Assembly (NCBI GenBank): GCA_900319645.1
Contig: ONPG01000005.1
Coordinates: 107,128 to 171,127, forward strand
Direction: 5' to 3'
Length of the DNA stretch: 64,000 bases
Origin: an uncultured Bacteroidales bacterium
GTDB lineage: Bacteria > Bacteroidota > Bacteroidia > Bacteroidales > Paludibacteraceae
Position 1 is the first letter of the stretch; every line of letters begins with the position of its first letter. The notes beneath the pieces are model-generated. The model had not been told where the DNA came from and searched no databases. It was given only the letters and a program-made list of their open reading frames with translations. A program made the translations under genes and the position numbers. Below are positions 1-64,000 of this stretch, piece after piece.

Positions 1-1181
1 TATGCATTAGGATCCTTGCCTGCCCCGAAATAGCTCTCGCGTCCTATATGCTGCAAAGCCGAATAGGCGGAGACAAAATGCTTGTTGTCCTCAGAGAACC
101 AGTCGAATGCCACCGATCCGGCGTCGATGTTATGTCTTAACTGCTCGGCTATATCCGCCTCGTGCGGCTCCAGTTCAAAATGGTTACCGCCACGGCGGAA
201 ATCCGTGGTGTGGTGATACTCAGCAGTTATTTTGCTATACGCGCTGGTCTTGAAAAAGACGCGTGTTCCCGCGGTAGTGGAACGCAGACGCGGCACGTCG
301 CTGAATCCGTCGTTGTCGCGGTCGTAATTGCTGCGGGTGCGATGGGATGCGAACAAGTACGCACCTATCTTGCGGTTCTCGCTCATCACCGAAGCGTTCA
401 GATCAGTATTGATATCGTATCCGACTTTCTCGTTCACGCTGCTCGTATTGCTCAGGTTCACAAAATTGCGTACCGGCTCCTTGGTAATCACGTTCACCAC
501 GCCGGCTATGGCGTTTGCGCCGTACATTGCCGATCCGCCGCCGCGTATCACCTCGATACGGTCTATCATTGCAGAAGGTACCTGCTCTAGACCATATACC
601 GAAGCCAGCGAACTGAACACAGGACGCGAGTCCATCAGTATCTGGGTATATTGACCTTGCAGACCGTTGATTCGCAGGTCCGTCTTGCCGCAGTTGGCGC
701 ATGTGTTCTCCACCCGCAGACCCGGCTGGAAATTCAGCGCGTCAGCTACGCAGGTCACCGCCGTTGTTTCAAACAGTTTGGGCGACAGCACATTCACGAT
801 AGTGGCTGCCTCCTGCGTCTTGGTGGCATAACGATTGGCTGTCACTACCACGTTCGATAGCATCTGCGACTGCTCGTGGATAACGGCTTTCAACTCCACC
901 GTTTTGTTCTCAACGATAGTCACCGGCAGTTCCTCCGTTTCGTATCCCACAAAACTGAATACAATAGTCTGCTTGCCAAGCGGCAGGTCTTTCAGTAAAT
1001 AGTGACCGCTTTCGTCGGTCACTGTTCCGATATTCGTCCCTTTCAGTTGCACATTCACGAAAGCCAGGTGTTCGCCTGTCTTTTCGTCTATCACGTGACC
1101 CGTCAGGTGAGCATCGTGTTGGGCTGCCAGCGACACTGCTATCACCAGCAGGACCGCAGTCAATAAGTGTTTGATTGTCAT
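1..1181 (-). CDS. TonB-dependent receptor, 5' part only (cut by window edge)
   Basis: The minus-strand frame opens at ATG 1181 and stays open to the window edge, giving 393 residues and no stop. A signal peptide (about residues 1-21, ending SLAAQ) is followed by a carboxypeptidase-regulatory-like domain (about 24-105; TGHVIDEKTGEHLAFVNV), a plug domain with RIEVIRGGGSAMYGANAIAG, and the first barrel strands. The plug carries a CxxC pair (NTCANCG). The last visible residues, GAGKDPNA, fit the usual barrel of this family. It is an outer-membrane, TonB-energised importer; the substrate cannot be read from sequence. It starts 30 bp after the stop of the next receptor on the same strand and is probably co-transcribed with it. 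Confidence 0.9.
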   Translation of the reverse strand, partial: MTIKHLLTAVLLVIAVSLAAQHDAHLTGHVIDEKTGEHLAFVNVQLKGTNIGTVTDESGHYLLKDLPLGKQTIVFSFVGYETEELPVTIVENKTVELKAVIHEQSQMLSNVVVTANRYATKTQEAATIVNVLSPKLFETTAVTCVADALNFQPGLRVENTCANCGKTDLRINGLQGQYTQILMDSRPVFSSLASVYGLEQVPSAMIDRIEVIRGGGSAMYGANAIAGVVNVITKEPVRNFVNLSNTSSVNEKVGYDINTDLNASVMSENRKIGAYLFASHRTRSNYDRDNDGFSDVPRLRSTTAGTRVFFKTSAYSKITAEYHHTTDFRRGGNHFELEPHEADIAEQLRHNIDAGSVAFDWFSEDNKHFVSAYSALQHIGRESYFGAGKDPNA

Positions 1182-1211
1182 TTCGTCCGTTTAGTATATT
1201 TTAGGTTGTGT

Positions 1212-3551
1212 TTAGTCTTTGTCGGGTTTCTCCAGGTCGTATCGGAAACCGAGATACACTTTCCACCCCGTTATCGGTGCACAGACCATCGAGGCGTCAA
1301 AATCCGGTCCGTAAGGTTGGAAACTGCCTACAATGGGGCTTGCTTGCCGGAAATTGGTCATATTCTCCGCACCAAGATAGAGGCTGCACGTGCGGAAATA
1401 CTTGGTCACCTGCGCCATCAGTTGCGGATACCAGCTGAGCGGCTTGGGGTTGGCGTAGCCGCCGTTCAGGTCACCCATCGCCACAAATCCGTCGGGCATT
1501 CGGCTGATGCCGTTGAACTGCGCAGTCACGTCAAACTGCCATTTTTTCAGAGGTGTCTGATAGCTGGTAGTGATCACGCCCTTGAACCGGCTTGTCAGCG
1601 GTTTGATTCTCAGTCGGGCGTCACCTTGCGCGTCGATTGTCGTCTGCTCGATATCCGTCCAACGGAAAGCTGCCGTCCACGTCCAGCCGCGCAGCACCTC
1701 CATCGACGCCTCCACCTGTGCGCTGTGCGCAAAAGAGCGACCGTTGATATCACGCTGGTTATAGATATGTACGGCGTGCGGGTCCTGATCCAGATCCACT
1801 ATCACCGAATTGATAAAATGCGTATAGTAGTACTCCGCTGACAGTTGCAGCTCGCGGCGACCTATAGGGATATAGAATGTAGTGCTCACACCCGTGTTCA
1901 TCGCCTGTTCCTGCGCAATAGAGCTCAGCGTGAGCTGACGCGAGGACGGCAGGATAAACGCGTTGTCTGCTATCGCGTTCGGGCTGCGGTAGCCTAATCC
2001 CACACTACCGCGGATGGTCCACCACTGCCAAGGCGTATAGCGGATATTCATTCGCGGAGTGGCAAAAAAACCGTACTTGCTCGACCAGTCCGCACGCACA
2101 CCTGCTACCAGCGACAACATCTCCGCGTAGTTGTAACTGTATTCCGCAAAGATTCCCGGAGTCACCTCCTGACGGCCGAGATCCAAAGTCTGGAGATTGC
2201 CGGATTCGCCTATTCGAAGCGTCTCGCCGTACTTGTCGTAGTTGACCGAGAGACCGGTGGTCAGCCGGTGATCGTTGTCGATAAGCCCCCCACCCTCGAA
2301 ATTGAGTTGGCAGAGCGCATTCAGATACGCGTTCAACTGGTTGGCGTTCCATTGACGCACACCATAACGATTGTTCAGGTCGTGATAACTGACTGCCGCT
2401 ATCACTGCCACCGAACTGCCGCTTTCGTCGTCGAACACATAGCCGTTCTTCATAAATCCTTCCACACGCCAGGTGTTCAGATCAATCTTGTACGGATTCA
2501 CGATACTGTCCGCCAACTGGCCGCCTCGACGACGGTCGTACAAACCGCGAACAAAAGCCTGGAACGTATAATCGCCATCCTTGTAAAACCAACGGTTGGC
2601 AAGATTGGCGTTCTGACCCTTGGGCATATCGGCAAACGAGTCTTTGTTGTCGTCCATCGTCATAAATCCGTGGCCGTAGTGCGCTAAGATACCCGTGTAG
2701 AGCGACTTGTGATGGCAGTGTTCATCGTGCTCGTGCTCCTCTTCTCCTTTGAGAGGAATCTGCCATCCACCCATAATGTTCGCCTCAGCCATCAGTTCGC
2801 TGTTAACCATCAGGTTGACCGACAAGGGGTTCTGCGTCTGCGGTTTGAGCAATTCCACATTGATCTGACCGGAGGTAGCCTCATAGCCGTTGATAACCGA
2901 CGACGTTCCTTTGCTCACCTGAATACTGCTCATCCACGGCCCTGGTATATACTCCAGTCCGAAGTTCTGCGCCAAGCCCCGTACTGCCGGGGTGTTCTCT
3001 TGGATCAACTGGACGTACGTGCCGCTCAGACCGAGCAAACGGATCTGTTTGGCACCCGTAGCGGCATCTGCGTAAGCCACATCCACGGACGCGTTGGTCT
3101 CAAACGCCTCGCTGAGGTTGCAGCACGCGGCACGGCACAACTCCTCGGTGCCGATCGACTGCGTGTCGAACGCCGAAGTACGACTTTTCAGTACGCCTTG
3201 TTTGCGCTCGGTGATGGTCACTTCGTCCAAAACCGCCTCTTCCACCATCACGATAGTAAGCGGTTTGCGATCTTTCACCACGATCGTGTCGTTGTGATAC
3301 CCCACAAACGATACCACCAGCACGTTTGTCCAACCGCCTTTGTCCTTCGCTCCTTGGTTCTTGTCTTTCACCGGCATCAACGTGAACTCGCCGTCCAATC
3401 CTGTTGCCACACCTATTCCTGTGCCGGACCAATACACATTCGCACCTATCATCGGCGAACCGCTGTCGTCCAGCACCACACCAGTCACTTGCGCACGCAA
3501 TACCACTACGTACGCAAACAGACTGAATATTATTGCACCTAATTTCTTCAT
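1212..3551 (-). CDS. TonB-dependent receptor with His-rich loop, candidate metal or metallophore importer
   Basis: 779 residues: signal peptide 1-21, carboxypeptidase-regulatory-like domain about 22-105, plug about 108-235 (TVTITERKQ-type start; GLSGTYVQLIQENTPAVRG), then a barrel. A CRAACC cluster lies at residues 139-144. At 270-281, between early barrel strands, is an acidic His-rich stretch (HEHDEHCHH) that would be an extracellular loop; such loops suggest Zn, Cu, Ni or a metal chelate, but this is inference. Residues 61-73 of the first domain hold a Lys/Gly-rich insertion encoded by imperfect repeats (3338-3369) where relatives have a short turn. It is the first gene of a two-receptor unit and has a good promoter upstream. 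Confidence 0.92.
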   Translation of the reverse strand: MKKLGAIIFSLFAYVVVLRAQVTGVVLDDSGSPMIGANVYWSGTGIGVATGLDGEFTLMPVKDKNQGAKDKGGWTNVLVVSFVGYHNDTIVVKDRKPLTIVMVEEAVLDEVTITERKQGVLKSRTSAFDTQSIGTEELCRAACCNLSEAFETNASVDVAYADAATGAKQIRLLGLSGTYVQLIQENTPAVRGLAQNFGLEYIPGPWMSSIQVSKGTSSVINGYEATSGQINVELLKPQTQNPLSVNLMVNSELMAEANIMGGWQIPLKGEEEHEHDEHCHHKSLYTGILAHYGHGFMTMDDNKDSFADMPKGQNANLANRWFYKDGDYTFQAFVRGLYDRRRGGQLADSIVNPYKIDLNTWRVEGFMKNGYVFDDESGSSVAVIAAVSYHDLNNRYGVRQWNANQLNAYLNALCQLNFEGGGLIDNDHRLTTGLSVNYDKYGETLRIGESGNLQTLDLGRQEVTPGIFAEYSYNYAEMLSLVAGVRADWSSKYGFFATPRMNIRYTPWQWWTIRGSVGLGYRSPNAIADNAFILPSSRQLTLSSIAQEQAMNTGVSTTFYIPIGRRELQLSAEYYYTHFINSVIVDLDQDPHAVHIYNQRDINGRSFAHSAQVEASMEVLRGWTWTAAFRWTDIEQTTIDAQGDARLRIKPLTSRFKGVITTSYQTPLKKWQFDVTAQFNGISRMPDGFVAMGDLNGGYANPKPLSWYPQLMAQVTKYFRTCSLYLGAENMTNFRQASPIVGSFQPYGPDFDASMVCAPITGWKVYLGFRYDLEKPDKD
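3338..3369. repeat. Imperfect short repeat inside a receptor gene
   Basis: About four degenerate 7-8 bp units of the type ctttgtc / cttcgctc / cttggttc / ttgtcttt lie in frame in the N-terminal domain of the receptor and encode a loop rich in Lys, Asp and Gly. The style matches the intergenic repeat tracts elsewhere in the window. Confidence 0.55.
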
Positions 3552-3567
3552 TTTCTCAAATCGGGTG

Positions 3568-3611: not shown

Positions 3612-3647
3612 GTAATTGTCAATTATCAATTGTCAATTGTCAATTAT
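3612..3647. repeat. Short tandem repeat, unit near caattgt
   Basis: Four imperfect copies of an 8-10 bp unit (gtcaatt / atcaatt). The tract reaches into the 3' end of the aminotransferase gene and supplies its last codons and TGA stop. The same unit recurs at 41577-41609 and inside glmS (53064-53117). Confidence 0.8.
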
Positions 3648-4827
3648 TATACGCTTCCAGCGCCTTGCGCAGCACGATCATCGCTTTGCCCAAATCCTCT
3701 TTGTTGAGCACGTAGGCCATTCTCACCTGGTGACGTCCGTCTTCGGGATTGGTGTAGAATCCTGTTCCCGGAGCCATCATTATCGTCGCTCCCTCATAAG
3801 TAAAATCCGTCAGGCACCACTTGCAGAATTTCTCCACGTCGTCCACCGGCAACTGCACCATCACATAGAATGCCCCCGTCGGAGCCGGAGCAAACACACC
3901 TGGGATCTGGTTCAGCTGGTCAATCAAGAAATTACGCCGCCTCAAATATTCGTCGTAAACCTCCAACATATAATCCTCCGGGGTGGAGAGCGAAGCTTCG
4001 GCTATCACCTGACCCAACAAAGGAGGACTCAGACGAGCCTGACAGAATTTCATCACAGCCTCGCGAACGGCTTTGTTCTTCGTGATCAGCGCACCGATAC
4101 GGATACCGCACTCGCTGTAGCGTTTCGACACACTGTCCACCAGCACCACGTTTTCCTCTATTCCCTCCAGGTGGCAGGCAGAGATATAAGGCGATTTAGT
4201 GTAGATAAACTCACGATAGACCTCGTCCGAAATCAGGTAAAGGTTGTATTTCTTCACCAGATCACGTATCTGTCTCATCTCCTGTTTGGTATAGAGATAC
4301 CCCGTAGGGTTGTTGGGATTGCATATCAAGATAGCACGCGTGCGAGGGGTGATCTGTTTCTCAAACTCCTCCACCGGCGGCAACTTGAATCCGTTCTCGA
4401 TGTGCGTTTTCACCGATTTGACGACAGCTCCGGCGGAGATAGCAAAAGCCATATAGTTGGCATAGCTCGGGTCCGTCACGATGATCTCATCACCTGGGTT
4501 CAGACAACTCATATATGCGAACATGATCGCCTCCGAACCGCCTGCTGTGATAATGATCTCGTCCGGCGATAGGTCGATGCCATAGTCCGCATAATAACTC
4601 ACCATCTTTGTCCGCAAGGACTTCAATCCCTGCGAAGGCGAGTATTCCAAGATCTCCTGCTTGAAATCCTTTACCGCCTCCATTGCCTGAGGAGGGGTCT
4701 TGATATCCGGCTGACCGATATTCAGATGATAAACGTGAACACCTGCCAACTTGGCTTCGTCAGCATACTTGGCGAGTTTCCGGATCGGGCTTTCCGGCAT
4801 CGATTGGGCACGTAATGAAATTTCCAT
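3640..4827 (-). CDS. PLP-dependent aminotransferase, class I (aspartate aminotransferase type)
   Basis: 395 residues, normal length for fold-type I class I/II aminotransferases. Visible motifs are the NPNNPTG loop, the SDEVYREF segment with the PLP-contacting Asp and Tyr, and the Schiff-base lysine in SVSKRYS followed by the CGIRIG arginine region. It transfers amino groups between an amino acid and 2-oxoglutarate in the cytoplasm; substrate choice (aspartate or another) cannot be decided from motifs. The final codons YNN and the stop are encoded by the AT-rich repeat tract at 3612-3647. It has its own promoter and is followed, on the same strand, by the receptor promoter, so it is probably monocistronic. 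Confidence 0.9.
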   Translation of the reverse strand: MEISLRAQSMPESPIRKLAKYADEAKLAGVHVYHLNIGQPDIKTPPQAMEAVKDFKQEILEYSPSQGLKSLRTKMVSYYADYGIDLSPDEIIITAGGSEAIMFAYMSCLNPGDEIIVTDPSYANYMAFAISAGAVVKSVKTHIENGFKLPPVEEFEKQITPRTRAILICNPNNPTGYLYTKQEMRQIRDLVKKYNLYLISDEVYREFIYTKSPYISACHLEGIEENVVLVDSVSKRYSECGIRIGALITKNKAVREAVMKFCQARLSPPLLGQVIAEASLSTPEDYMLEVYDEYLRRRNFLIDQLNQIPGVFAPAPTGAFYVMVQLPVDDVEKFCKWCLTDFTYEGATIMMAPGTGFYTNPEDGRHQVRMAYVLNKEDLGKAMIVLRKALEAYNN

Positions 4828-4876: not shown

Positions 4877-5032
4877 GTAAACGGGCATTTTTTTTGAGAA
4901 AAACGCGATTTTATCGCGTGTTGGTGTGTGCTGAGTGGTTATTGGGAGCTTGCTCACGGATAACCACTCAGCACACACCAACAAGGACGTCAGTCCGGTT
5001 TCTCAAAAAATATGTCCGTTTACTTGCATATG
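4869..5032. repeat. Large branched inverted-repeat element
   Basis: A perfect 23-bp inverted repeat (4920-4942 with 4960-4982) encloses a 17-nt loop that itself contains GAGC/GCTC. Outside it, the left flank 4869-4900 and right flank about 5000-5032 pair again, with 16 exact bases (ATATGCAAGTAAACGG) and a few mismatches after them. Between inner and outer stems each side carries its own small hairpin: 4903-4919 (ACGCGAT/ATCGCGT) and 4985-4996 (GGAC/GTCC). The fold would be a four-armed structure of about 165 nt. It has no believable coding content. The region 4828-5212 has no gene; it holds this element, the aminotransferase promoter, the tandem units and a terminator. Confidence 0.8.
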
Positions 5033-5174
5033 CACCGCAGGATGCGAATGTTCTTTCGGTGGGCCCCTGCAACGCAGGGAGGACCGAAATTACTACAAAA
5101 TTGCATATGCACAGCAGGATGCGAACGTAAGTTCGGTGGGTCCCTGCAGCGCAGGGAGGACCGAAATTACAAAG
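5024..5174. repeat. Two tandem copies of a 77-bp palindromic unit
   Basis: Copy A is 5024-5100 and copy B 5101-5174; about 63 of the first 70 positions match. Each begins TTGCATATGCAC and contains a hairpin with stems TTCGGT/ACCGAA and CCCTGC/GCAGGG. Several differences between copies lie in the variable stretch before the hairpin (about 5046-5056 and 5124-5134). Both copies resemble repetitive extragenic palindromes; copy A directly continues the inverted repeat to its left, sharing its TTGCATATGC arm. Confidence 0.8.
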
Positions 5175-8228: not shown

Positions 8229-8280
8229 CTTTCACCTTTCACTTTTCACCTTTCACTTTTCACTTTTCAGTTTTCAGTTT
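8229..8280. repeat. Short tandem repeat, unit ctttcac / cttttcac
   Basis: About six copies of a 7-8 bp pyrimidine-rich unit. It begins a gene-free stretch (8111-8457) that otherwise holds the next repeat tract and one hairpin; I see no gene in it. Confidence 0.8.
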
Positions 8281-8325
8281 AATATCGGTCCATTATCGGT
8301 CCAATATCGAGCCAATATCGGGATA
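8281..8325. repeat. Short tandem repeat, unit atatcggtcca
   Basis: Four degenerate copies of an 11-13 bp unit (atcggtcc / atcgagcc / atcggg) directly abutting the previous, unrelated tract. Confidence 0.75.
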
Positions 8326-9537: not shown

Positions 9538-10164
9538 TTACGTTTGATGATTTATGATTGTTTTTTCGATTTGTTTTCGGAACTGTTCCATCTCGCCGAG
9601 ATCGCTGATCTCCCGCAGGTTGCGCACGCGCTGTCTGACCGACTGAACCGCGTGTTTCTCCAGTTTCTGCGCAGAAGGAGTGATAGCCTGTTGGAGCGCA
9701 TCTATATCGACGTCGTAGAGCATACAGGCGTGTACCACAGTGCCTGTAAGCGTGGTGTAGCAGGCTGTGCCCGCTACCTTGCGTCCGCCCACAAGCACGT
9801 CGTTGTGCGCCGTAGTTACCGCCTCATAGCCAAGCTTTTGCAGTCCGCTTGCCAGAATCCGGAGGAACTCGCTGAACACCTCCTGCGAACGGGTGGAAGG
9901 CGAGATATACGACACCATCAGGTTGCCGCCATCAGCATAAACACATCCTCCTCCGCTCTGCCGTTGCACGACGCGGACATTGTGCGCCGAACAATAGGCA
10001 TCGTTGACCTCCTGTTCGCGGATCTGATGGCGACCGTAGATAACCGTCGGTGCAACGATCCAGGTGAAAAGCGTCAGCTCTGTCACACTCTTCACCATCT
10101 CCGCCTCCATCGCCAGATACTCCTCCAGCAGCAGACCTTCCTTAGGATGAATCAGTTTTACCAT
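9538..10164 (-). CDS. Lipoate-protein ligase A family protein (single catalytic domain)
   Basis: 208 residues. Motif RQSGGGCVYAD is the conserved lipoate-binding glycine-rich loop and GGRKVAGTA carries the catalytic lysine of the biotin/lipoyl ligase fold. It attaches lipoate or octanoate to lipoyl domains. It is much shorter than LplA of E. coli (about 338 residues) because the C-terminal accessory domain is absent, so it may be an amidotransferase-type relative or need a partner. The last residues and stop fall in AT-rich repetitive DNA. Upstream on the same strand is the guanine deaminase gene. Confidence 0.85.
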   Translation of the reverse strand: MVKLIHPKEGLLLEEYLAMEAEMVKSVTELTLFTWIVAPTVIYGRHQIREQEVNDAYCSAHNVRVVQRQSGGGCVYADGGNLMVSYISPSTRSQEVFSEFLRILASGLQKLGYEAVTTAHNDVLVGGRKVAGTACYTTLTGTVVHACMLYDVDIDALQQAITPSAQKLEKHAVQSVRQRVRNLREISDLGEMEQFRKQIEKTIINHQT

Positions 10165-10173: not shown

Positions 10174-10294
10174 CGTTATTACGTTATTACGTTTCCCCGC
10201 CTCTCTTCGATTGTCCAGATTTTCGCTTGTCGAAAATCATCTTCCGAACGAAGCGAGATCATTTTCAATTTTCAATTTTCAACTTTCAATTTTC
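10174..10294. repeat. Intergenic repeats and hairpin between guaD and the ligase gene
   Basis: Contains a short direct repeat (cgttattacg, 10174-10193), a perfect 8-bp hairpin GATTTTCG/CGAAAATC (10219-10239), and a tandem repeat of unit ttttcaa (10261-10294). The last tract overlaps the end of guaD and supplies its TGA stop. Confidence 0.7.
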
Positions 10295-11563
10295 TTTGAT
10301 TCTCGGCTGTGCGATCTCCTTGCCCTGGCAGAACCGGTGGGTCAGTTGGCGGTCGTCGCCAAGATAGATATACCGCTCCAGCCGGTGTTGCAAGGAATAG
10401 TTGTCGAAATTCAAATCCGAGTCGTCCACTACCAGTGCATCAAAGGCGTAGCCGGGCTCGAAACTGCCGACCTTGCCGAAGAACGAACCTCCGGACTTCG
10501 TGGCCAGCCAGAACGCTTCGCTCAGGCTGAGGAACATCTCGCGATGACCGCCGTGTACCCATTTCATCTTCGACATCTGGAGCGTGTAATGGATAGCACG
10601 GAAAATAGAGAATCCGCTTCCTGCCGACACATCCGAACCCAAAGCGACAGGGATACCGGCGTTCATAAACCGGCGGATAGGCGCAATGCCCGAACCAAGG
10701 TTGCAGTTGGAGGTCGGACAATGGACGGCAAACACATGGTTAGCCCGCATCAACTCAAACTCCTCGCCTGCGGTGTAGCAGCAATGTGCCATCAGCGTCG
10801 GCGTCTGGCCGAACAGACCATAACGACGGTAAGCGTCGCCGTAACACGTCGATTCGGGTTCCAACTCCTTAACCCACTCGATCTCCGATTGGTTCTCGCT
10901 GAGGTGGGATTGCACCGGCAGATGATACTCGTTCGCCAGTTGTCCGAGCGCAGTGAGCATCTCTGGCGTACAGCTGGGCACGAAACGTGGAGTGACGATA
11001 GCCGACACCAGCGGCATCGTTGCCGTGCGCGCCATCACACGACGGGTACCCTCGATCACTTCTTCCGTCGTGTTACGGAGCGTTTCCGGACAGTTGCGAT
11101 CCATTCCGACCAAACCGATCATTCCGCCCATTCCTGCTTCGTGCAGCAGATCCGCCAACAAACACGACGCCTCCGGGTGGATCGTCGCGAAGATAGCGGC
11201 ACGCATCGTACCGAGTTTCCACAGGTCACGCACAAAACGGCGGTACATCCGCTCGGCGTACTGCAAATCCCGGTATTTGGTCTCCTCGGGGAACGTATAG
11301 GTATTAAGCCACGGAAGGAGCTCCTGATCCATGGCAATGCCTAAGTTGCGGTATTGCGGTGCGTGTACGTGCAGGTCGTTCATCGCCGGCATCAACAACT
11401 GGTCGCCGAAATCGGTAACCGGCACATCTTTGTATTGCTCCGGTAATTCCGCAAAAGTGCCGACCACACAACCGTCATCGCCCACTACCACATAGCCGTG
11501 CTCCAGCATCTCAAATCGCTCGGGCTCCGGCGTAAACAAGATATTCGCTTTATATGCTTTCAT
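10286..11563 (-). CDS. guaD: Guanine deaminase
   Basis: 425 residues, normal length. Amidohydrolase metal motif HVH at 65-67 in the GuaD-specific context NDLHVHAPQ; second family hallmark TPRFVPSCT; QSHLSENQSE supplies further metal/substrate His residues; ALGSDVSAG carries the metal-binding Asp. It converts guanine to xanthine and ammonia in purine salvage. The final residues KEN and the stop lie in the ttttcaa repeat tract. It is preceded on the same strand by rlmB with a 29-bp gap. Confidence 0.94.
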   Translation of the reverse strand: MKAYKANILFTPEPERFEMLEHGYVVVGDDGCVVGTFAELPEQYKDVPVTDFGDQLLMPAMNDLHVHAPQYRNLGIAMDQELLPWLNTYTFPEETKYRDLQYAERMYRRFVRDLWKLGTMRAAIFATIHPEASCLLADLLHEAGMGGMIGLVGMDRNCPETLRNTTEEVIEGTRRVMARTATMPLVSAIVTPRFVPSCTPEMLTALGQLANEYHLPVQSHLSENQSEIEWVKELEPESTCYGDAYRRYGLFGQTPTLMAHCCYTAGEEFELMRANHVFAVHCPTSNCNLGSGIAPIRRFMNAGIPVALGSDVSAGSGFSIFRAIHYTLQMSKMKWVHGGHREMFLSLSEAFWLATKSGGSFFGKVGSFEPGYAFDALVVDDSDLNFDNYSLQHRLERYIYLGDDRQLTHRFCQGKEIAQPRIKEN

Positions 11564-14915: not shown

Positions 14916-16516
14916 TAGTATTTTAACCAATTAATAAACTCCATCGGGTCGGTGGTAAACGCCATCGGATCGGCTACCTGATTGCCCTTTGCATCGAGTT
15001 GCACAAAGAACGGCTGGGCATTCGATCCGAACTGCTCACGCTGCAAACGGCTGTTCTCGGTGCCTTCGCTCTCGCCGTCGCTGTCTGTATCCAGACGATC
15101 GTCCACAAAGAGCTCGATAAACACATAGTTCTGCAACCGTGCTTTCACACTGTCGTGATCCAGCACAAACGCTTCCATCTTGCGGCAGTTGACACATCCG
15201 TAACCCGTGAAATCAAGGATCACCGGCTTGTTAACCTGACGTGCGTAAGCTATTCCTTCTTCGTAATCGTTAAAGACGACGCGACCCTCTATCTCCATCG
15301 GAGGTGCAAAAGCACTGATGGCCTTCACCGGTGCGCCCCACAAACCAGGAACCAAGTAACCGGCAAACGCCAGCGAAGGAAGAATCACTATCGTGCGGAT
15401 AATCTTGCGCGTGGTGGATACATTTTTGATATTCCAAAGGAGATAGATTCCAATTCCCGCAAAGCATACAATCCAGATAGCGATAAACAGCCAGCGTGGC
15501 AGGATACCCCACCCGTACGCCATGTCAGCCACCGAGAGGAACTTGAGCGAAAGAGCCAGTTCAAGGAAAGCCAATACCACTTTCAGGCTCGTCATCCAGT
15601 CGCCGGATTTAGGTGCCTGTTTGAGCCACTGCGGGAACATCGCAAACAGCGAGAAGGGCAAAGCCAACGCAATCGCAAAGCCTAACATACCTATCGCCGG
15701 AGCCAAAAGGCTACGTCCTGCTGCCTCCACAAGCAAAGTGCCGATAATAGGTCCCGTACACGAGAAACTGACGATCACCAGCGTGAACGCCATCAGCAGA
15801 ATACTTACGAATCCTCCTGTACTGCGTGCTTTGTTGTCCAAAGCCGTGGACCAACTGTCCGGCAAAGTGATCTCAAACAATCCAAAGAACGAGAGTGCAA
15901 AAACCACCAGTACAAGGAAGAAAATGATATTCATTACAGCGTTGGTACTCAGCTCATTAAGGGCTGACGCCCCAAATAGAATCGTTACCAACAGACCTAA
16001 TCCCACATACAAAATTATGATGCTCAACCCATAAAGAACAGCATCCTTCAATCCGCCGCCTTTCTTGAGGAAAAAACTCACCGTCATCGGAATAATCGGC
16101 CACACGCAGGGCGTGAAGATGGCCAGCAATCCGCCCAACAATCCTAACAGGAAAATCAACCACAACGAACGGTCATTTGCCGTGCTTGGCAATTCCTTTG
16201 TACTTTGTACTTTGTCCCTTTGTACATTCTTCCACTCCCACACCTCGGGAGCCGTACACATCTGGTCGTTGCAGGCATTGTAGCGAATAGGTGCCAGATC
16301 GGTCTTGGACACCGTCATCACAAAGGAATCCTTGTATTCCTGAGTGAACATGAACTCGCCCATTTCCAAAATACTCATATGCCACCCCGGTTCCACTGTC
16401 GCCTTCAACCGCACACTATCGCCGATTTCTTCGCCTGTCCACTTCACAGGCTGTACCATTTGCGCCGCCACCATCAGCGGCATACATATCATTACTATTG
16501 TCAGTATTCTTTTCAT
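14915..16516 (-). CDS. Thiol:disulfide interchange protein DsbD-like
   Basis: 533 residues: signal peptide 1-19; short N-terminal periplasmic domain with a Cys pair (C82, C87; ACNDQMCTAPE); linker 97-110; multi-helix membrane domain with FTPCVWPIIPMT (C137) and FSCTGPIIG; C-terminal thioredoxin-like domain with CVNC near 440. It moves electrons from cytoplasmic thioredoxin to periplasmic disulfides. The linker is encoded by a ctttgta-type repeat (16195-16225). Its stop overlaps the next gene by one base, and that gene encodes a Cys-rich exported protein, so this copy may serve that substrate (inference). Confidence 0.92.
   Translation of the reverse strand: MKRILTIVMICMPLMVAAQMVQPVKWTGEEIGDSVRLKATVEPGWHMSILEMGEFMFTQEYKDSFVMTVSKTDLAPIRYNACNDQMCTAPEVWEWKNVQRDKVQSTKELPSTANDRSLWLIFLLGLLGGLLAIFTPCVWPIIPMTVSFFLKKGGGLKDAVLYGLSIIILYVGLGLLVTILFGASALNELSTNAVMNIIFFLVLVVFALSFFGLFEITLPDSWSTALDNKARSTGGFVSILLMAFTLVIVSFSCTGPIIGTLLVEAAGRSLLAPAIGMLGFAIALALPFSLFAMFPQWLKQAPKSGDWMTSLKVVLAFLELALSLKFLSVADMAYGWGILPRWLFIAIWIVCFAGIGIYLLWNIKNVSTTRKIIRTIVILPSLAFAGYLVPGLWGAPVKAISAFAPPMEIEGRVVFNDYEEGIAYARQVNKPVILDFTGYGCVNCRKMEAFVLDHDSVKARLQNYVFIELFVDDRLDTDSDGESEGTENSRLQREQFGSNAQPFFVQLDAKGNQVADPMAFTTDPMEFINWLKY
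16195..16225. repeat. Repeat inside the dsbD-like gene, unit ctttgta
   Basis: Four imperfect 7-8 bp copies (ctttgta, ctttgta, ctttgtc, ctttgta) encode the linker between the N-terminal domain and the membrane domain. Confidence 0.75.
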
Positions 16517-16532: not shown

Positions 16533-16571
16533 GTCGGTCATCTCTCGGTTGTCTCTCGGTCATCGGTCGGT
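16533..16571. repeat. Short tandem repeat, unit tctcggt
   Basis: About five degenerate copies (tcggtcat, ctcggttg, ctcggtca, tcggtcgg) fill the gap between murA and the dsbD-like gene. Confidence 0.75.
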
Positions 16572-17878: not shown

Positions 17879-17925
17879 ATATTCATTTACAATTTAATCA
17901 TTTACCATTTGGTCATTTATATATA
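17879..17925. repeat. Short tandem repeat, unit catttaca
   Basis: AT-rich tract between murB and murA with four to five degenerate copies (catttacaattt, catttaccattt, catttatata). Its edge overlaps the last codons of murB. Confidence 0.65.
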
Positions 17926-26311: not shown

Positions 26312-26350
26312 TTCAGATTTCCAGATCTCCAGATCTCCAGATCTCCAGAA
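26312..26350. repeat. Short tandem repeat, unit cagatctc
   Basis: Four copies of an 8-9 bp unit (ccagatct) directly after groEL and before the terminator. Confidence 0.8.
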
Positions 26351-32967: not shown

Positions 32968-33016
32968 TTGCGAGATACCGATATTTCGAGATTTCGACAT
33001 ATCGATATTTCGAGAT
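32968..33016. repeat. Short tandem repeat, unit gatatttcga
   Basis: Four to five degenerate copies (gatatttcgagat / ttcgacatatcg) fill the serC-serA gap and would be translated only if an upstream start of serA were used. Confidence 0.75.
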
Positions 33017-33021
33017 TCCTA

Positions 33022-37555: not shown

Positions 37556-37618
37556 GTTATTGGTCTTATTCGTTTTCGACTCGTTTTCGACTCGTTTTCG
37601 TCTCGTTTTCGTGTTTAA
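37556..37618. repeat. Short tandem repeat, unit ctcgttttcga
   Basis: Four clear 11-bp copies (cgttttcgact / cgttttcgtct) and flanking degenerate copies in the 77-bp gap between the HAD gene and the acetyltransferase gene. Confidence 0.85.
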
Positions 37619-38629: not shown

Positions 38630-39242
38630 TAAAATCAGTTCTGTTAACAATAGATCGTCCGAGCGTAATCTCGTCGGTATATTCGAGTTCGTTTCCGATA
38701 GCCACTCCCCGGGCGAGTTGAGAGACCTTAGGCGGGTTAGGCAATTCAAGATTCTGCAAGCGGCGATATATATAGAAATTGGTGGTGTCGCCTTCCATCG
38801 TGGTGGGCAAAGCGAGGATGATTTCCTCCACGTTGCCACGCTTCACCCGCTCGAGAAGCGAGTCTATCTCGATATCCTTCGGTCCAACACCGTCCATGGG
38901 CGAGATAATTCCGCCAAGCACATGATACACGCCGCTATACTGGCCTGTGTTCTCGATAGACATCACATCCTGAACGTTTTCCACCACACAGATGGTAGCG
39001 TGATCGCGTCGGGTGGAACCGCAGATGGGGCAAAGCTCGGAATCCGAGATGTTATGGCACTCGCGGCAATAGACGACTTCGTTTTTGAGTCGTGTGAATG
39101 CGCCGGAGAAAGCCTGCACTTCCTGCTCCGGCTGACGAAGCAGATGCAAGACAAGACGCAAGGCCGTTTTGCGTCCTATGCCGGGCAGCGAAGCCATCTG
39201 GTTAACGGCCTGCTCCAATAATATGCTGGGATATTCGGACAA
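38622..39242 (-). CDS. recR: Recombination mediator RecR
   Basis: 206 residues. N-terminal helix-hairpin-helix [18 protein letters not shown], the four-cysteine zinc finger [17 protein letters not shown], and the Toprim core [13 protein letters not shown]. With RecF/RecO it loads RecA at gaps. RecR and the small membrane protein overlap; the RSH gene lies 20 bp upstream, the pairing being probably one transcript. Confidence 0.96.
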
Positions 39243-39268
39243 TTGAAAATTAAAATTGAAAATTAGGA
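39240..39268. repeat. Short repeat, unit attgaaa
   Basis: AT-rich tract (aattgaaaattaaaattgaaaa type) covering the recR-RSH junction and the RSH stop codon. Confidence 0.65.
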
Positions 39269-41575: not shown

Positions 41576-41576
41576 T

Positions 41577-41609
41577 GATAATTGACAATTGATAATTGAC
41601 AATTGATAT
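41577..41609. repeat. Short tandem repeat, unit aattgac/aattgat
   Basis: Four copies of a 9-10 bp unit following the stop of the hypothetical gene. Same unit as the tracts at 3612-3647 and inside glmS. Confidence 0.85.
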
Positions 41610-45233: not shown

Positions 45234-45382
45234 TCTATCGTCCCGTTACCGTCTCGAAAGTGTCTCGAGTATTGTCTATGATTACAAAACAATTAGCAAA
45301 CGATTAACAAACGATCGACTAACAATCAACTAACGATTAGCAAATGATTAGCAAATGATCAGCAAATGATCAGCAAACAGTT
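45234..45382. repeat. Two short repeat tracts upstream of the nucleotidyltransferase-YitT gap
   Basis: 45234-45266 is related to the tandem repeat inside murB (29 of 33 bases). 45286-45382 is a separate tract of unit gcaaatgatta / gcaaacgatta with about eight degenerate copies. The gap 45175-45384 holds nothing else recognisable. Confidence 0.8.
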
Positions 45383-47758: not shown

Positions 47759-47765
47759 GATAGAG

Positions 47766-47816
47766 ACAGGTGATTTACGATTTGACGATTTACGATTTAA
47801 CGATTTACGATTTTGG
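47766..47816. repeat. Short tandem repeat, unit gatttacg
   Basis: About five 8-bp copies (gatttacg/gatttgac/gatttaac) in the gap between ribH and the aspartate kinase gene. The same unit recurs at 53773-53800. Confidence 0.85.
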
Positions 47817-47818
47817 AA

Positions 47819-51907: not shown

Positions 51908-53767
51908 TTATTCTACTGTTACTGATTTGGCGAGGTTGCGCGGCTGATCGACATCGCAGCCTTTCTCCACAGCGATGTGGTACGCCAGCAACTGCAAAGG
52001 AATGACGGTCAGCAGCGGCGAGAGACACTCTTCGGTCTCAGGCACTTCGATGGTGTGGTCGGCAATACGGCTGACGAGTTTGTCTCCCTCTGTCACAACA
52101 GCTATCACCCTGCCCTTTCGGGCTTTGATTTCCTGGATATTCGACACCACTTTCTCGTATGTGCCGCAACGCGGAGCTACGACGACCACCGGCATCTCCT
52201 GCGAGATCAGGGCAATTGGACCGTGCTTCATCTCTGCGGCAGGATAGCCCTCCGCATGGATGTATGAGATCTCTTTCAGTTTGAGTGCGCCCTCCATCGC
52301 CACTGGGAAATTATATCCTCGGCCGAGATAGATGAAGTTCTGGGCGTACGTGAAGATCTTAGCGAACTGAGCTATTTGTTTGTCCTGCTCGAGAACGCGT
52401 TCAATCTTCATCGGGATCTGCCCAAGTTCGCGCACGATAGAGAGGTATTGCTCTTCGGAGATCGTTCCTTTCTCGCGTCCGATACAAAGCGCCAGCATGG
52501 TTAAGGCCGTCACTTGCGCCGTGAAGGCTTTTGTGCTTGCGACACCTATCTCGGGTCCGACGTGTGTATAACAACCGCTGTCCGAGACGCGCGGAATAGA
52601 CGCTCCGATGACATTGCAGATAGAGAAGATGAAGGCTCCTTTGGATTTCGCCAGTTGGATAGCCGCCAGCGTGTCAGCCGTTTCGCCGGACTGGGAGATA
52701 GCGATGACCACGTCATCCTTGTTGATTACGGGTTTGCGGTATCGGAACTCGGAGGAGTACTCCACTTCGACAGGTATCTGCGCGAACTCCTCGATGGCGT
52801 ACATAGCAATCAGGCCGGCATGCCAGGACGTGCCGCAGGCTGTGATGATGATACGTTTGGCGTTGAGAAAGCGCTCTTTGTTGTCGATGAATCCGGAGAG
52901 CGCGATATTGTCCTGGCGCACGTTGACCCGTCCGCGCATAGAATCGGTGAGCGTACGCGGCTGTTCGAAGATCTCCTTGAGCATAAAATGCGGGTAGCCG
53001 CCTTTCTCCAGTTGGGAAAGCGAGAGCTCGAGACGTTTGATCTCAGGCGTTTTATCCACACCGTTGATAGTTGACAGTTGATAATTGACAATTGACAATT
53101 CATCATTAACTGTCAACATGACGACTTCTTCGTCTTCGATATAGATGACCTGGTCGGTATATTCGACGATAGGCGTAGCGTCGGAGGCGAGGAAATACTC
53201 GTCCTTGCCGATACCCACGACGAGCGGCGAGCCTTTTCTGGCAGCAATAAGCGTGTCAGGATGGTCTTTGTCGAGTACCGCGATAGCATAAGCGCCCACC
53301 ACCTGCTGCAAAGCCAGTTGGACGGCAGTCTTCAGGTCCACCTGGCGGTTGACCTGCGTGTATTCGATGAGCTGAATGAGCACTTCGGTATCTGTGTCGG
53401 ATTTGAAGGTATAACCTTCTGCCTGCAAACCTTGTTTGAGGACCGCGTAGTTCTCGATGATACCGTTGTGGATGATAGCCAGACGCTCTGACTCAGAGTA
53501 ATGAGGGTGCGCGTTGACGGTATTCGGTTCGCCGTGGGTTGCCCAACGCGTGTGCGCGATACCGATCGTGCCATCCGTATCTTTGTCTGCGCAGAAGGCT
53601 TCCAGTTCCGCCACTTTGCCTTTCGCTTTATAGACATTCAGTTGTCCCTGAGCGTTGATAAGCGCCACTCCGGCACTATCGTAGCCGCGGTACTCCAAAC
53701 GATGAAGACCTTTTATAAGAATAGGATAAGCGTTTCGTTTTCCTATATAACCAACTATTCCACACAT
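51908..53767 (-). CDS. glmS: Glucosamine-fructose-6-phosphate aminotransferase (isomerizing)
   Basis: 619 residues. Catalytic Cys2 (MCGIVGYIG), glutaminase loop AHTRWATHGEPN, two SIS isomerase domains (SQSGETADTLAAI, GRGYNFPVAMEGALKLKE) and the C-terminal RNLAKSVTVE. It makes glucosamine-6-phosphate, the entry to amino sugars and cell wall. Residues 223-235 (ELSIVNYQLSTIN) between the glutaminase and isomerase parts are encoded by the repeat at 53064-53117 and lengthen that loop by about eight residues. It lies 26 bp before ddh. Confidence 0.95.
   Translation of the reverse strand: MCGIVGYIGKRNAYPILIKGLHRLEYRGYDSAGVALINAQGQLNVYKAKGKVAELEAFCADKDTDGTIGIAHTRWATHGEPNTVNAHPHYSESERLAIIHNGIIENYAVLKQGLQAEGYTFKSDTDTEVLIQLIEYTQVNRQVDLKTAVQLALQQVVGAYAIAVLDKDHPDTLIAARKGSPLVVGIGKDEYFLASDATPIVEYTDQVIYIEDEEVVMLTVNDELSIVNYQLSTINGVDKTPEIKRLELSLSQLEKGGYPHFMLKEIFEQPRTLTDSMRGRVNVRQDNIALSGFIDNKERFLNAKRIIITACGTSWHAGLIAMYAIEEFAQIPVEVEYSSEFRYRKPVINKDDVVIAISQSGETADTLAAIQLAKSKGAFIFSICNVIGASIPRVSDSGCYTHVGPEIGVASTKAFTAQVTALTMLALCIGREKGTISEEQYLSIVRELGQIPMKIERVLEQDKQIAQFAKIFTYAQNFIYLGRGYNFPVAMEGALKLKEISYIHAEGYPAAEMKHGPIALISQEMPVVVVAPRCGTYEKVVSNIQEIKARKGRVIAVVTEGDKLVSRIADHTIEVPETEECLSPLLTVIPLQLLAYHIAVEKGCDVDQPRNLAKSVTVE
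53064..53117. repeat. Repeat inside glmS, unit ttgacaa / ttgataa
   Basis: Five imperfect copies, in frame, encode an extended linker of glmS. The same unit occurs intergenically at 3612-3647 and 41577-41609. Confidence 0.85.
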
Positions 53768-53772
53768 AAAGC

Positions 53773-53800
53773 TATTTATGATTTGACGATTTACGAATTG
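53773..53800. repeat. Short tandem repeat, unit gatttacg
   Basis: Three copies (gatttgac/gatttacg/aattgatt) in the glnN-glmS gap, same unit as 47766-47816. Confidence 0.75.
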
Positions 53801-53801
53801 A

Positions 53802-56118: not shown

Positions 56119-56183
56119 TATTTGTGCGTTTTTTTGCATTTTTTGGGTGTTGGAGGACGGAAAAGGAGAGGTATCGAGTCGCT

Positions 56184-56228
56184 AATCACGCTATAATCAC
56201 GCTATAATCACGCTATAATCACGCTATT
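56184..56228. repeat. 11-bp tandem repeat, unit ataatcacgct
   Basis: Four near-perfect copies. It lies between the glnN and pheT promoters, so it is in neither gene's leader. Confidence 0.9.
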
Positions 56229-56354: not shown

Positions 56355-56383
56355 GAATTTGCGGAAATTGTTATCAAACGGCG

Positions 56384-56507
56384 AATTAAACGAATTAAAC
56401 GAATTTTATTTGTTCACAAAGAACACAAAGGGAACACAAAAAAAGGAAACACAAGTGGAACACAAAGGGAACACAAGTGGAACACGAATAAGGTTGAATA
56501 CGAATAA
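56384..56507 (+). repeat. Repetitive 5' leader of pheT
   Basis: First three copies of cgaattaaa (56384-56405), then five or more degenerate copies of gaacacaaag / ggaacacaag. The whole lies in the 165-nt untranslated leader between the pheT promoter and its ATG. No terminator-like hairpin or Phe-rich leader peptide was recognised. Confidence 0.75.
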
Positions 56508-60596: not shown

Positions 60597-60627
60597 TCGA
60601 GATCACGAGATGACGAGATCACGAAAA
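60597..60627. repeat. Short tandem repeat, unit cgagatcacgagatga
   Basis: Three degenerate copies of cgagat(c/g)a in the gap between prfC and the permease gene. Confidence 0.7.
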
Positions 60628-60646: not shown

Positions 60647-61945
60647 ATGAAAAACAAATCTCTTCAAATCCGCCTCATCGTCATGAACTTCCTGGAGTTC
60701 GCGGTATGGGGCGCGTACTTAACCTCGATGGGCACGTATCTCGCTACCCACGGCATGGCAAGCCACATCGGCTGGTTCTACTCCATTCAGGGTATCGTCA
60801 GCCTGTTTATGCCTGCGTTAATGGGCATTGTGGCGGACCGTTGGCTTCCGGCACAAAAAGCATTGAGCCTTTGCCACGCGCTGGCAGGTATCTTCATGTG
60901 CGCAGCGGGATTGTACGCCTACAACACGCCGGACGTGCAGTTCGCCACCCTTTTCTCGCTCTACACCATCTCTGTGGCATTCTTCATGCCGACGATTGCG
61001 CTCACCAACTCGGTGGCATTCAATGCGTTGGTGAAAGCCGGAATGGACACCGTCAAGGATTTCCCGCCGATTCGTGTGTTCGGAACCGTGGGATTTATCG
61101 CAACGATGTGGTGTGTGGATCTGCTGGGTTTCCAGGCTACTCCATGGCAATTCGTCGTTTCCGGAGGTCTGAGTATCCTGCTGGCGCTTTATTCGCTCAG
61201 CCTGCCTGCGTGCGAGATCAAGAAAACAGAAGGCAATGTGGATCTCGTGGAAGCTTTGGGTTTGAAGGCATTCACCCTCTTCCGCCAGAAGAAAATGGCT
61301 TTGTTCTTCATCTTCTCGATGATGTTAGGCATGTGTCTGCAGGTGACCAACTCGTACGCCAACCCGTTCATCACTTCGTTTGGAGCGATTGAAGAGTTTG
61401 CCAATACGTTCGGCGTTCAGCATGCCAATATCCTCATCTCTATCAGCCAGATATGCGAGGCGCTCTGTATCCTGGCTATTCCGTTTTTCCTGAAGAAATT
61501 CGGTATCAAGAATGTCATGCTGATGGCGATGTTCGCGTGGGTGTTCCGTTTCGGTTTCTTCGGGGCCGGTAATCCCGGAATGCCCGGAGTAATACTTTTC
61601 GTGCTCAGCTGCATCGTCTATGGTTTTGCATTCGATTTCTTCAATATCTCCGGCGCGTTGTATGTGGATCAGGAGACCGAGCCTTCGCAACGCTCGTCGG
61701 CACAAGGTCTGTTTATGATGATGACCAACGGCTTAGGTGCTACCATCGGTACGCTCTCCGCCCAAGCGATTGTCAACCGTCTGGTGTACGCTGAGAGCGT
61801 GACCAGCCAAGGTGCGATGGCTATCTGGGATGGATGGAAAGAAGCATGGTACATCTTCGCCGGATTCGCATTGTTTGTAGCCATCGCTTTCTGGATCTTC
61901 TTCCCCAAAACGCCGGTGAACAAAAACCTGGAAGTGAAACACTAA
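60647..61945 (+). CDS. MFS nucleoside permease (NupG/XapB-like)
   Basis: 432 residues, 12 helices. Characteristic N terminus RLIVMNFLEFAVWGAYLTS and GWFYSIQGIVSLFMPALMG; D-R-W loop VADRWLPAQKA; FPPIRVFGTVGFIATM. It imports nucleosides with H+. Consistent with guaD in a salvage pathway, although the genes are far apart. A repeat tract separates it from gldF. Confidence 0.9.
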   Translation: MKNKSLQIRLIVMNFLEFAVWGAYLTSMGTYLATHGMASHIGWFYSIQGIVSLFMPALMGIVADRWLPAQKALSLCHALAGIFMCAAGLYAYNTPDVQFATLFSLYTISVAFFMPTIALTNSVAFNALVKAGMDTVKDFPPIRVFGTVGFIATMWCVDLLGFQATPWQFVVSGGLSILLALYSLSLPACEIKKTEGNVDLVEALGLKAFTLFRQKKMALFFIFSMMLGMCLQVTNSYANPFITSFGAIEEFANTFGVQHANILISISQICEALCILAIPFFLKKFGIKNVMLMAMFAWVFRFGFFGAGNPGMPGVILFVLSCIVYGFAFDFFNISGALYVDQETEPSQRSSAQGLFMMMTNGLGATIGTLSAQAIVNRLVYAESVTSQGAMAIWDGWKEAWYIFAGFALFVAIAFWIFFPKTPVNKNLEVKH

Positions 61946-61979
61946 ATCATAAATCATAAATCATAAATTATAAATCACA
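61945..61979. repeat. Short tandem repeat, unit aaatcat
   Basis: Five copies of a 7-9 bp unit (aaatcata) starting at the permease stop and ending directly before the gldF ATG. Confidence 0.85.
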
Positions 61980-61980
61980 T

Positions 61981-63243: not shown

Positions 63244-63321
63244 ATTCGATACTTTTTTGCAGAAAAATGCAAAAAACATCGTATATTTTAAAATTTATGT
63301 TTTATAACATAGAAAAATATT

Positions 63322-63352: not shown

Positions 63353-63358
63353 ACCGGA

Positions 63359-63486: not shown

Positions 63487-63583
63487 TATAGACCTCTTTT
63501 ATATTAGACCATTTTTATTATAGACCTTATTTATACGCGTTCGCACGCGCACGCGTAACGAGTATTCAAACGGCATCTAAAAG

Positions 63584-63642
63584 AGGGTGATAAGGGGGTG
63601 ATTACGGGGTGATAAGGGCGTGATAAGGGCGTGATAAGGTGG
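63584..63642. repeat. 11-bp tandem repeat, unit gtgataagggc
   Basis: Five copies, the last three nearly perfect (gtgataagggg, gtgataagggc, gtgataagggc). Confidence 0.9.
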
Positions 63643-63646
63643 CTAT

Positions 63647-63700: not shown

Positions 63701-63863
63701 AAACATGCAAATACTTGCTAAAGTGTCTTTTCCTGCCTTTAACAGCAGATTAACGAATCCATTTTATAGGATATTTACGCCGGTTTTACCCGTTTTTCTC
63801 TCTGGGAAAGAATATAGAATTTACTCAAATTTGTAGATTTTCGATTGATTTATTACAAAATGC

Positions 63864-63894
63864 TTGCATATATCGAAAAAAAGCAGTACCTTTG
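63864..63894 (+). promoter_or_regulatory. Promoter of the gene at the window end
   Basis: -33 TTG (63864-63866) continuing TTGCATATATCG, 20-bp spacer with an A-tract, -7 TACCTTTG (63887-63894). Leader of about 15 nt to the ATG. Confidence 0.88.
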
Positions 63895-63915
63895 CAGCCG
63901 GAAGTTGCAAAGCTT

Positions 63916-64000
63916 ATGAGTAAAACGCTAAAAGACCGCTTGGATTATCTGATTGCTTTAGTATCAGAATTTGCTGCGACACATCACTTGTCGTTGCAGC
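63916..64000 (+). CDS. 5' end of a gene, possibly DUF3791 domain protein
   Basis: Only 28 codons are visible: MSKTLKDRLDYLIALVSEFA then ATHHLSLQ. The length of the leader and quality of the promoter support a real start. The pattern hydrophobic-x-EFA-x(4)-L resembles the N terminus of DUF3791 proteins, small proteins often encoded next to DUF3990-type toxin partners in Bacteroidota; this is a guess from a short stretch. Confidence 0.45.
   Translation, partial: MSKTLKDRLDYLIALVSEFAATHHLSLQ

Follow-up and report, generated by a model that had tools for sequence, protein, structure and literature searches.

Cyanobacterial STRR sequences are short heptamer arrays, and the very small mobile repeats of Nostoc (small dispersed repeats) are tiny, dispersed sequences without a coding part. 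Here we describe tandem-repeat arrays, many with units of 7, 8 or 11 bp, that occupy the gaps between genes in a 64,000-bp stretch of DNA (the window; positions 107128-171127 of contig C19) from genome G000 (2.64 Mb, 84% complete). The host is probably a rumen member of the Paludibacteraceae, as judged from its glmS protein, which shares 85-91% identity with five uncultured Bacteroidales/Porphyromonadaceae records and 77% with a Paludibacteraceae record from roe deer rumen. The arrays belong to families that recur at many loci, take characteristic positions and strands relative to genes, and appear and disappear at orthologous junctions, and two of the 11-bp families have been copied together with their flanks.

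The closest described system is the TAACTGA heptamer array (PMC4679880, MacGregor 2015). In Maribeggiatoa, TAACTGA forms direct repeats in gene gaps that are mostly 'forward' and lie just before start codons, one strand has stop codons in all three frames, and some arrays reach into the end of the preceding gene or are located inside genes. Indels between two Cyanothece strains occur mostly in 7-nt steps, and arrays of this type were found in Beggiatoaceae, cyanobacteria and five Bacteroidetes including Paludibacter. When rotated, TAACTGA reads TGATAAC, which is a case of the TGANAAY class described below, and the two systems share the strand property, the start-proximal site, the overlap with gene ends and length differences of 7 nt. 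Here too, 7-bp tandem units are mostly intergenic and occur at many loci. However, TAACTGA genomes have one dominant heptamer, with related heptamers rare, whereas G000 carries many families of 7-, 8- and 11-bp units, its TGANAAY arrays lie mostly at stops and its AAATCGT arrays at starts, and orthologous junctions are empty or filled across 30 species. What is added beyond TAACTGA is thus the many unit classes, the stop-side class, the 11-bp families and the species series of orthologous junctions.

GGGNATC heptamer arrays of Xanthomonas and Nostoc lie between aligned open reading frames, many of them no more than 50 bp from a start or stop, and are under-represented in coding regions; these repeats are G-rich and quadruplex-forming, whereas most 7-bp units here are A/T-rich (PMC4692102, Rehm 2015). 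For the 11-bp class, the closest known parallel is BrickBuilt, a miniature inverted-repeat transposable element with a 23-bp minisatellite that has 19 copies in one genome of Porphyromonas gingivalis (PMC4596501, Klein 2015). Like the 11-bp elements, BrickBuilt is dispersed and intergenic, contains internal tandem repeats and has a limited host range, but its unit is 23 bp and its ends are small inverted repeats, whereas the unit here is 11 bp and no such ends were recognised by eye. Heptamer arrays have so far been reported in few lineages and left unexplained, and the arrays described here are an unusually rich form of this poorly explained repeat type.

Repeat families in the gaps of the window and beyond

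A home-made gene caller identified 52 genes in the window, with 58.6 kb of coding sequence and 40 gaps totalling 5,394 bp. A tandem-repeat finder recovered, within about 15 bp, all 15 tracts listed in the original prediction for this DNA. At period 6-30 and a score of at least 40, the gaps contain 19 arrays, located in 14 gaps, against a mean of 0.4 in dinucleotide shuffles (maximum 3, 20 shuffles), which confirms that the tracts are real. Coding sequence contains 6 arrays, and the earlier list had missed the array within glmS (53063-53100) and others inside genes. The units stand head to tail with periods of 5-30 bp and without a unique-spacer layout, so they had rightly been set apart from CRISPR. 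Known RNAs do not explain the arrays, as one tRNA was the sole match at gathering thresholds within the window. The arrays are listed below; further loci were sought in the 729 kb of G000 sampled outside the window.

3614..3645, minus strand: 7-bp array GACAATT (sense), TGANAAY class, extending 6 bp into the end of the aminotransferase gene 3640-4827; unit at 14 further loci
8230..8280, minus strand: 7-bp array TTTCACT (AGTGAAA sense), 7.3 copies, abutting the next 11-bp element; 1 further locus
8281..8321, minus strand: 11-bp array, dispersed element with conserved left part GGCCTATCC followed by CGATATTGGCT-type units
10174..10193, minus strand: 8-bp array CGTTATTA; the start of gene 9538-10164 follows 9 bp downstream
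10261..10294, minus strand: 7-bp array TGAAAAT (sense), lying partly within the end of the amidohydrolase-family gene 10286-11563; 17 further loci
16196..16225, minus strand: 7-bp array of the ACAAAGT family (sense), inside the DsbD-like gene 14915-16516
16534..16564, minus strand: 11-bp array GAGATGACCGA (sense), 6 bp past the murA stop; no second locus in 729 kb
17883..17919, minus strand: 15-bp (7+8) array TTAAATTGTAAATGA (sense), filling the gap of two minus-strand genes; no second locus in 729 kb
26314..26349, no strand assigned: 8-bp array CAGATCTC between convergent genes; no second locus in 729 kb
32971..33017, minus strand: 8/24-bp array of the ATCGAAAT family
37570..37611, minus strand: 11-bp array GTCGAAAACGA, 3.8 copies; unit also inside a gene at L174:5145
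39241..39265, minus strand: 13-bp array TTAATTTTCAATT at the stop codon that closes gene 39263-40699
41576..41608, plus strand: TGATAATTGACAAT array, whose first base directly follows the stop codon of gene 40811-41575
45287..45378, minus strand: 11-bp array GCTAATCGTTT, 8.4 degenerate copies, 6 bp past the stop of gene 45385-46500; no second locus in 729 kb
47772..47813, minus strand: AAATCGT leader array with a 15-bp (7+8) super-unit, ahead of the start of the amino acid kinase-family gene 46511-47758; 6 further loci
53063..53100, minus strand: in-frame 7-bp array in glmS, codons about 223-235, in the stop-free orientation AATTGTC
53768..53801, minus strand: glmS leader with AAATCGT and AAATCAT units, following a type III glutamine synthetase gene; junction J3
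56183..56227, plus strand: element of four 11-bp units, (AATCACGCTAT)4
56382..56405, plus strand: 9-bp array CGAATTAAA upstream of pheT, in the divergent gap
56442..56485, plus strand: 22-bp array AAAGGAAACACAAGTGGAACAC upstream of pheT
60598..60624, plus strand: 8-bp array CGAGATCA between the prfC stop codon and the start codon of a nucleoside-symporter-like MFS gene; junction J1
61943..61977, plus strand: 7-bp array TAAATCA, beginning with the MFS stop codon and filling the gap to the ABC-2 transporter-family start; junction J2
63581..63639, plus strand: 11-bp array AAGGGGGTGAT, the AATCACCCCCT family in reverse complement; 2 further loci

A genome sample of 793 kb (30% of 2.64 Mb), consisting of the window and 40 other stretches, contains 221 intergenic arrays, which corresponds to a density of 2.13 arrays per kb of gap, with about 8% of the bases in gaps lying in arrays. 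A 379-kb sample of another species of the genus, G107, contains 119 arrays (2.63 per kb). The density was 1.93 per kb in five close relatives and 0.00-1.01 in other Bacteroidota groups, both calculated from small samples of loci of at most 22 kb around glmS, down to one locus per group for the latter. At least two arrays occupy 36 of the 167 array-bearing gaps. Gaps of G000 (L262-L276) look mosaic, with recurring blocks of GGCATT/GGCTTT hexamers, TGAAAAC and ATGGACA heptamers and CGATATTGG 11-mers in varying order.

Array periods are quantised. Lag analysis of the gaps yielded 73 matches at lag 7, 59 at lag 8 and 56 at lag 11, compared with 5.6-8.5 in shuffles, and lags 14, 15 and 22 were likewise high, whereas the intermediate lags 6, 9, 10 and 12 yielded 21-29 matches, lag 13 yielded 14, and lag 5 also fell far below 7, 8 and 11. 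The period is not a multiple of three in 110 arrays with periods of 6-13 and is a multiple of three in 22. Several other Bacteroidota groups have similar but weaker period quanta.

The original prediction held that nearly every unit is private to its locus, which is ruled out at genome scale by the recurrence of units. Ten of the 15 listed units recur outside the window, at 1-17 further loci each, with shuffled-unit controls of 0 in all but one of 75 trials, and the other five showed no second locus in the 729 kb at the stringency used. When units were compared among listed arrays, with periods such as 14, 16 and 22 halved where the halves agreed, exact recurrence at another array was observed for 36 of 52 units of period 7 (shuffled-unit mean, 9.3), 11 of 24 of period 8 (0.5) and 24 of 46 of period 11 (0.0). 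Allowing one mismatch made period 7 uninformative (48 of 52 against 44.3 shuffled, which is no difference). A gap-against-gap comparison revealed that window positions 47759-47818 and locus L065 share an array with 97.6% identity over 41 bp, and AAATCGTAAATCGTC is a 15-bp super-unit common to loci with seemingly unrelated flanks. We also searched 178 genomes of the genus, one per species. The AAATCGT pattern matches 125 of them and its reversed control 1, and the TGATAATTGACA pattern matches 106, with 0 to 181 overlapping places per genome; the reversed control of TGATAATTGACA, which is itself a stop-bearing heptamer repeat, was non-zero in 45 genomes, mostly with 1-5 places and with 19 in G011.

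Position, strand and turnover of the 7- and 8-bp arrays

Gene proximity as such is a weak signal, with 93 arrays of the 221-array sample within 10 bp of a gene boundary compared with 79 +/- 5 by random placement, and the asymmetry between stops and starts is stronger. Of the arrays in co-directional gaps, 48 have only the upstream stop within 15 bp, 15 only the downstream start, 29 both and 64 neither; the corresponding numbers for arrays placed at random in these gaps are 30.5, 30.6, 21.9 and 73.0. The predicted location at stops and between co-directional genes is therefore correct, and this near-stop excess sharpens it.

The arrays near stops carry stop codons on the sense strand. In G000, near-stop arrays contain 9.74 stop trinucleotides per 100 bp in sense and 3.86 in antisense, 48 arrays are sense-rich and 12 antisense-rich (p = 3e-6), and stops occur in all three frames in 42 of 77 arrays in sense and 13 in antisense. 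This bias was replicated in G107, with 11.79 against 2.78 stops per 100 bp and 43 against 7 arrays (p = 2e-7). Because arrays that overlap a stop contain one by construction, the fair subset consists of those that do not overlap a gene, among which sense-rich arrays outnumber antisense-rich ones by 15 to 5 in G000 (p = 0.04), 14 to 5 in G107 (p = 0.06) and 29 to 10 in both species pooled (p = 0.003). The orientation follows the gene: the ratios are 6:0 and 7:0 for two families and 3:0 for a third pattern on minority-strand genes, and 7:0, 8:1 and 7:2, respectively, on majority-strand genes. With the majority gene strand as a stand-in for the replication strand, we rejected a replication-strand cause because minority-strand genes obey the same rule.

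Two classes differ in the boundary that they occupy. Among 15 sampled loci with AAATCGT arrays, a sense start follows within 60 nt in 13, an antisense start in none, and none lies inside a gene; among 23 such loci from other species (one per species), an open start lies within 35 nt in 20 in sense and 6 in antisense. AAATCGT thus has the fixed orientation to the start codon that is known from TAACTGA-type repeats. TGANAAY arrays lie mostly at stops, with 18 of 27 loci within 20 nt past a sense stop, 1 past an antisense stop and 3 inside genes, and 8 of the 27 lie within 60 nt of a sense start.

Orthologous junctions, whose repeat states were scored by eye, differ between related species. At J2, between the MFS stop and the ABC-2 start, we compared the 30 best loci among 167 genomes with a match. 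In 11 of these species, the stop and the start share bases, adjoin or are separated by 1 nt, and 19 contain a 21-64-nt insert that by eye consists of degenerate repeats. In one sister pair, L217 is empty and L222 has a 49-nt insert, and L203 and L205 differ in length by 7 nt. At J3, between type III glutamine synthetase and glmS, the 14 loci picked for synteny include TAATATG in 4, arrays in 9 and a short unrepeated gap in 1. The alternation of empty and filled states at J2 and J3 indicates fast turnover. At J1, between prfC and the MFS gene, the CGAGATCA unit is common to the window and L207, relatives of L207 have TAATTCG, TAGAGAGAC or TAGTAAAC units, and others have CCTAGGA or no clear array. 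At J2, species that are not sisters can have near-identical alleles (L203 with L205 and L210; L206 with L222), and such alleles at J1 and J2 (L203-L231) point to recombination between species or repeated loss.

The glmS leader (L182-L201) retains AAAT-type heptamers although the upstream neighbour gene differs. By eye, these heptamers are kept in 7 of 7 species whose leader has no glutamine synthetase neighbour (L195-L201), in some of them behind a promoter-like TAATTTTG. The linker within glmS (window 53063-53100, L003-L031) appears to be a hot spot in the genus for varied in-frame repeat-like inserts. Its common form is LRLGEEVDITTINNV, and by eye the inserts vary by species and include AATTGTC, AATCACC, ACAAGGT, GAGTTGA and CCCGTAACC.

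Dispersed elements with 11-bp units

The 11-bp arrays lie in longer gaps, with a median host gap of 361 bp compared with 121 bp for periods 7, 8, 14, 15, 16 and 21. Dispersed copies, conserved flanks and internal tandem repeats occur together in two families. The pattern (AATCACGCTAT)2 has 63 overlapping places in G000, where its reversed control has 0. Among the inspected copies, the unit count is exactly four in 14 of 15 and the flank TTTWACCAAC is present in 12 of 15, and 10 of 11 copies in the species G115 and G079 have four units. Any match to the pattern was found in 30 of the 178 genomes, those listed being mostly the variant AATCAC[GAC]CAAT, but one or two matches per genome carry little weight because the reversed control matches 21 genomes, with 22 places in G161. 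In the second family, the GGCCTATCC-CGATATTGG element has 15 places in G000 (control, 0) and none in the remaining 177 genomes of the genus with up to 3 mismatches allowed, and its copies align over a conserved core, about 45 bp long, that is embedded in mosaics made of other repeat blocks.

Four copies are a mark of the AATCACGCTAT family and not of the 11-bp class. As read from sequence, a stop codon spans each unit boundary in the AATCAC families (TAA, or TGA for AATCACCCATG), so that four copies provide one stop per frame; the CGATATTGGCT family does not have this feature. In G115 and G079 (L286-L296), a dispersed element of about 100 bp is composed of four 11-bp units and a conserved tail of about 55 nt, which is common to eight copies in G115, and in several copies a reading frame from upstream terminates in the array or just ahead of it. 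A fold of the G115 tail, run without a shuffle control, gave a weak hairpin only, and we did not retain RNA structure as an explanation of it. Terminal inverted repeats and target-site duplications were not noticed by eye, with no systematic search made, and G000 has a single match (28.6 bits; G000:C24:559-858) to Y1_Tnp, the transposase type that stands beside palindromic repeats in REP/RAYT systems.

Explanations for the origin and retention of arrays

We consider it reasonably probable that dispersed families of two kinds fill the intergenic DNA, the 7/8-bp kind being copied and slipping under the influence of translation and the 11-bp kind being small elements. Arrays of the first kind (7, 8 or 7+8 = 15 bp) would arise, lengthen, shorten, and be replaced or lost quickly in tight junctions; they would be copied in trans between loci of one genome and then changed by whole units, presumably through slippage. 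The super-units and units shared by different loci favour such trans copying followed by unit-wise change in length. The translated message would decide which places and which strand survive, with selection on translation producing the strand bias, such that units with stops on one strand would persist mostly in the stop-bearing reading at gene ends and in the stop-free reading inside genes, and AAATCGT-type arrays would be retained as leaders ahead of start codons. The second kind, with four units and conserved flanks in its best-seen family, would amplify within a species, mostly in longer gaps. The best account of strand and position lies in what the message can tolerate or makes use of. 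The arrays may play a direct part in initiation, but we rate this no higher than possible, since relatives lack arrays at the same junction, ATG is not avoided, and no phase match was found.

Several observations weigh against this explanation. Arrays near neither boundary have no strand bias (24 against 29), and near-start arrays of the two species show no avoidance of ATG/GTG start codons (1.67 sense, 1.71 antisense per 100 bp). Array-free gaps have little stop excess (4.72 sense against 4.19 antisense per 100 bp), and thus give no sign of general selection for spare stops, and some near-stop families, e.g., CAGATCTC and CGAAAACGAG, are free of stops; on these two grounds we rejected spare stops as a general function. 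Inside genes, where arrays with periods 7, 8, 11, 14, 15, 16 or 22 were listed, the strand rule holds for G000 (35 arrays; 35 stops sense against 72 antisense) but fails for G107 (28 arrays; 60 against 44). The array at J3 of L184 has the opposite orientation, related species without an array at the same junction indicate that the array is dispensable for the gene, and 86 of the 221 arrays fall outside all classes. Finally, the 44 period-11 arrays have, after rounding, four copies in 18 cases, two in 15, three in 10 and eight in 1. The explanation rests neither on a general four-copy rule nor on the cleanness of the two pattern controls that match in other genomes.

The original prediction envisaged a process that makes local tandem duplications at gene ends. 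Gain, loss and replacement at orthologous junctions agree with the process, but its purely local part is not supported, as unit families are common to many loci, the AAATCGTAAATCGTC super-unit is shared and two 11-bp families are copied with their flanks. A purely local origin of each array, in which the gene's own stop/start junction (e.g., TAAATG plus 1-2 bases) is duplicated and then lengthened through slippage, so that recurrent units reflect similar seeds, seems to us doubtful but worth keeping in view. The J1 and J2 arrays do repeat junction bases: at J2, the empty TAAATG or TGATG and the arrays TAAATCA, TAAATGGC and TGAATGC have such bases in common, and at J1, the stop type tracks the unit (TAG with TAGAGAGAC and TAGTAAAC). 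Stop codons of the gene's own type are in excess in near-stop arrays (162 against 120 +/- 12), which may be trivial because the excess is not significant once arrays overlapping the gene are set aside (43 against 36.6 +/- 7.3, p = 0.22, n = 40), and we therefore discarded own-stop seeding as a general origin. Units also occur inside genes that offer no stop seed (the glmS linker; 35 + 28 coding arrays), in leaders behind promoter-like sequence, and, as the 15-bp super-unit, at different loci. Arrays in such leaders and within coding sequence are likewise left unexplained by the alternative suggestion of decayed duplicated gene ends. Templating by a reverse transcriptase is disfavoured by the lack of an RVT_1 match in the 84%-complete G000.

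It is unlikely, in our estimate, that AAATCGT and TGANAAY arrays are sites or signals for a post-transcriptional regulator or for initiation, as proposed for TAACTGA in Maribeggiatoa. The pre-start position, the fixed strand and the retention in the glmS leader under a changed upstream context would fit this proposal, as would the lack of Shine-Dalgarno sequences in Bacteroidetes mRNAs (PMC6847099). However, the same junction is free of arrays in related species, and the spacing does not match: upstream of starts, genes with near-start arrays (43 genes, all array kinds) have A-peaks at about -8 to -10 and -15 to -17, and not at the -6 and -12 to -14 that, with -3, mark 362 other G000 genes, although -3 and -6 are A-rich in array genes too. 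This mismatch led us to reject phasing with A-rich initiation positions. Neutral slippage alone, in which gaps tolerate tandem duplications without further cause, would account for rapid gain and loss, degenerate copies and low coding density, but we judge it improbable, as it predicts no strand rule and no units common to several loci, and accounts neither for quantised periods, which dip at 9-10 and 12-13, nor for the AATCACGCTAT elements, whose copy number is constant and whose flanks are shared. That the arrays are assembly artefacts would be suggested by the relatives being metagenome assemblies; it is extremely improbable given that the arrays are short, that the families occur at many loci and in more than 100 separately assembled species, and that the glmS array keeps the frame.

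A bolder and rather speculative idea, to which we give little credence, is that the arrays form a fast-changing, strand-specific, two-part marking of junctions, with AAATCGT leaders at starts and TGANAAY at gene ends, whose species-specific vocabulary is copied between loci and which modulates initiation and uncouples or recouples neighbouring genes. If so, junctions would be switched over evolutionary time through gain and loss of arrays, in bacteria that make no use of Shine-Dalgarno sequences. The 178-genome genus displays empty, filled and replaced junction states, strand rules that follow the gene and separate start and stop classes, which makes it possible to test how arrays spread between loci, why units measure 7, 8 or 11 bp, and whether arrays act on translation in bacteria that make no use of Shine-Dalgarno signals.

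A longer repeat was also observed in the window at 5024-5170, in the gap between genes 3640-4827 and 5213-8110, where a 77-bp tandem duplication is present in 1.9 copies with 90% matches.

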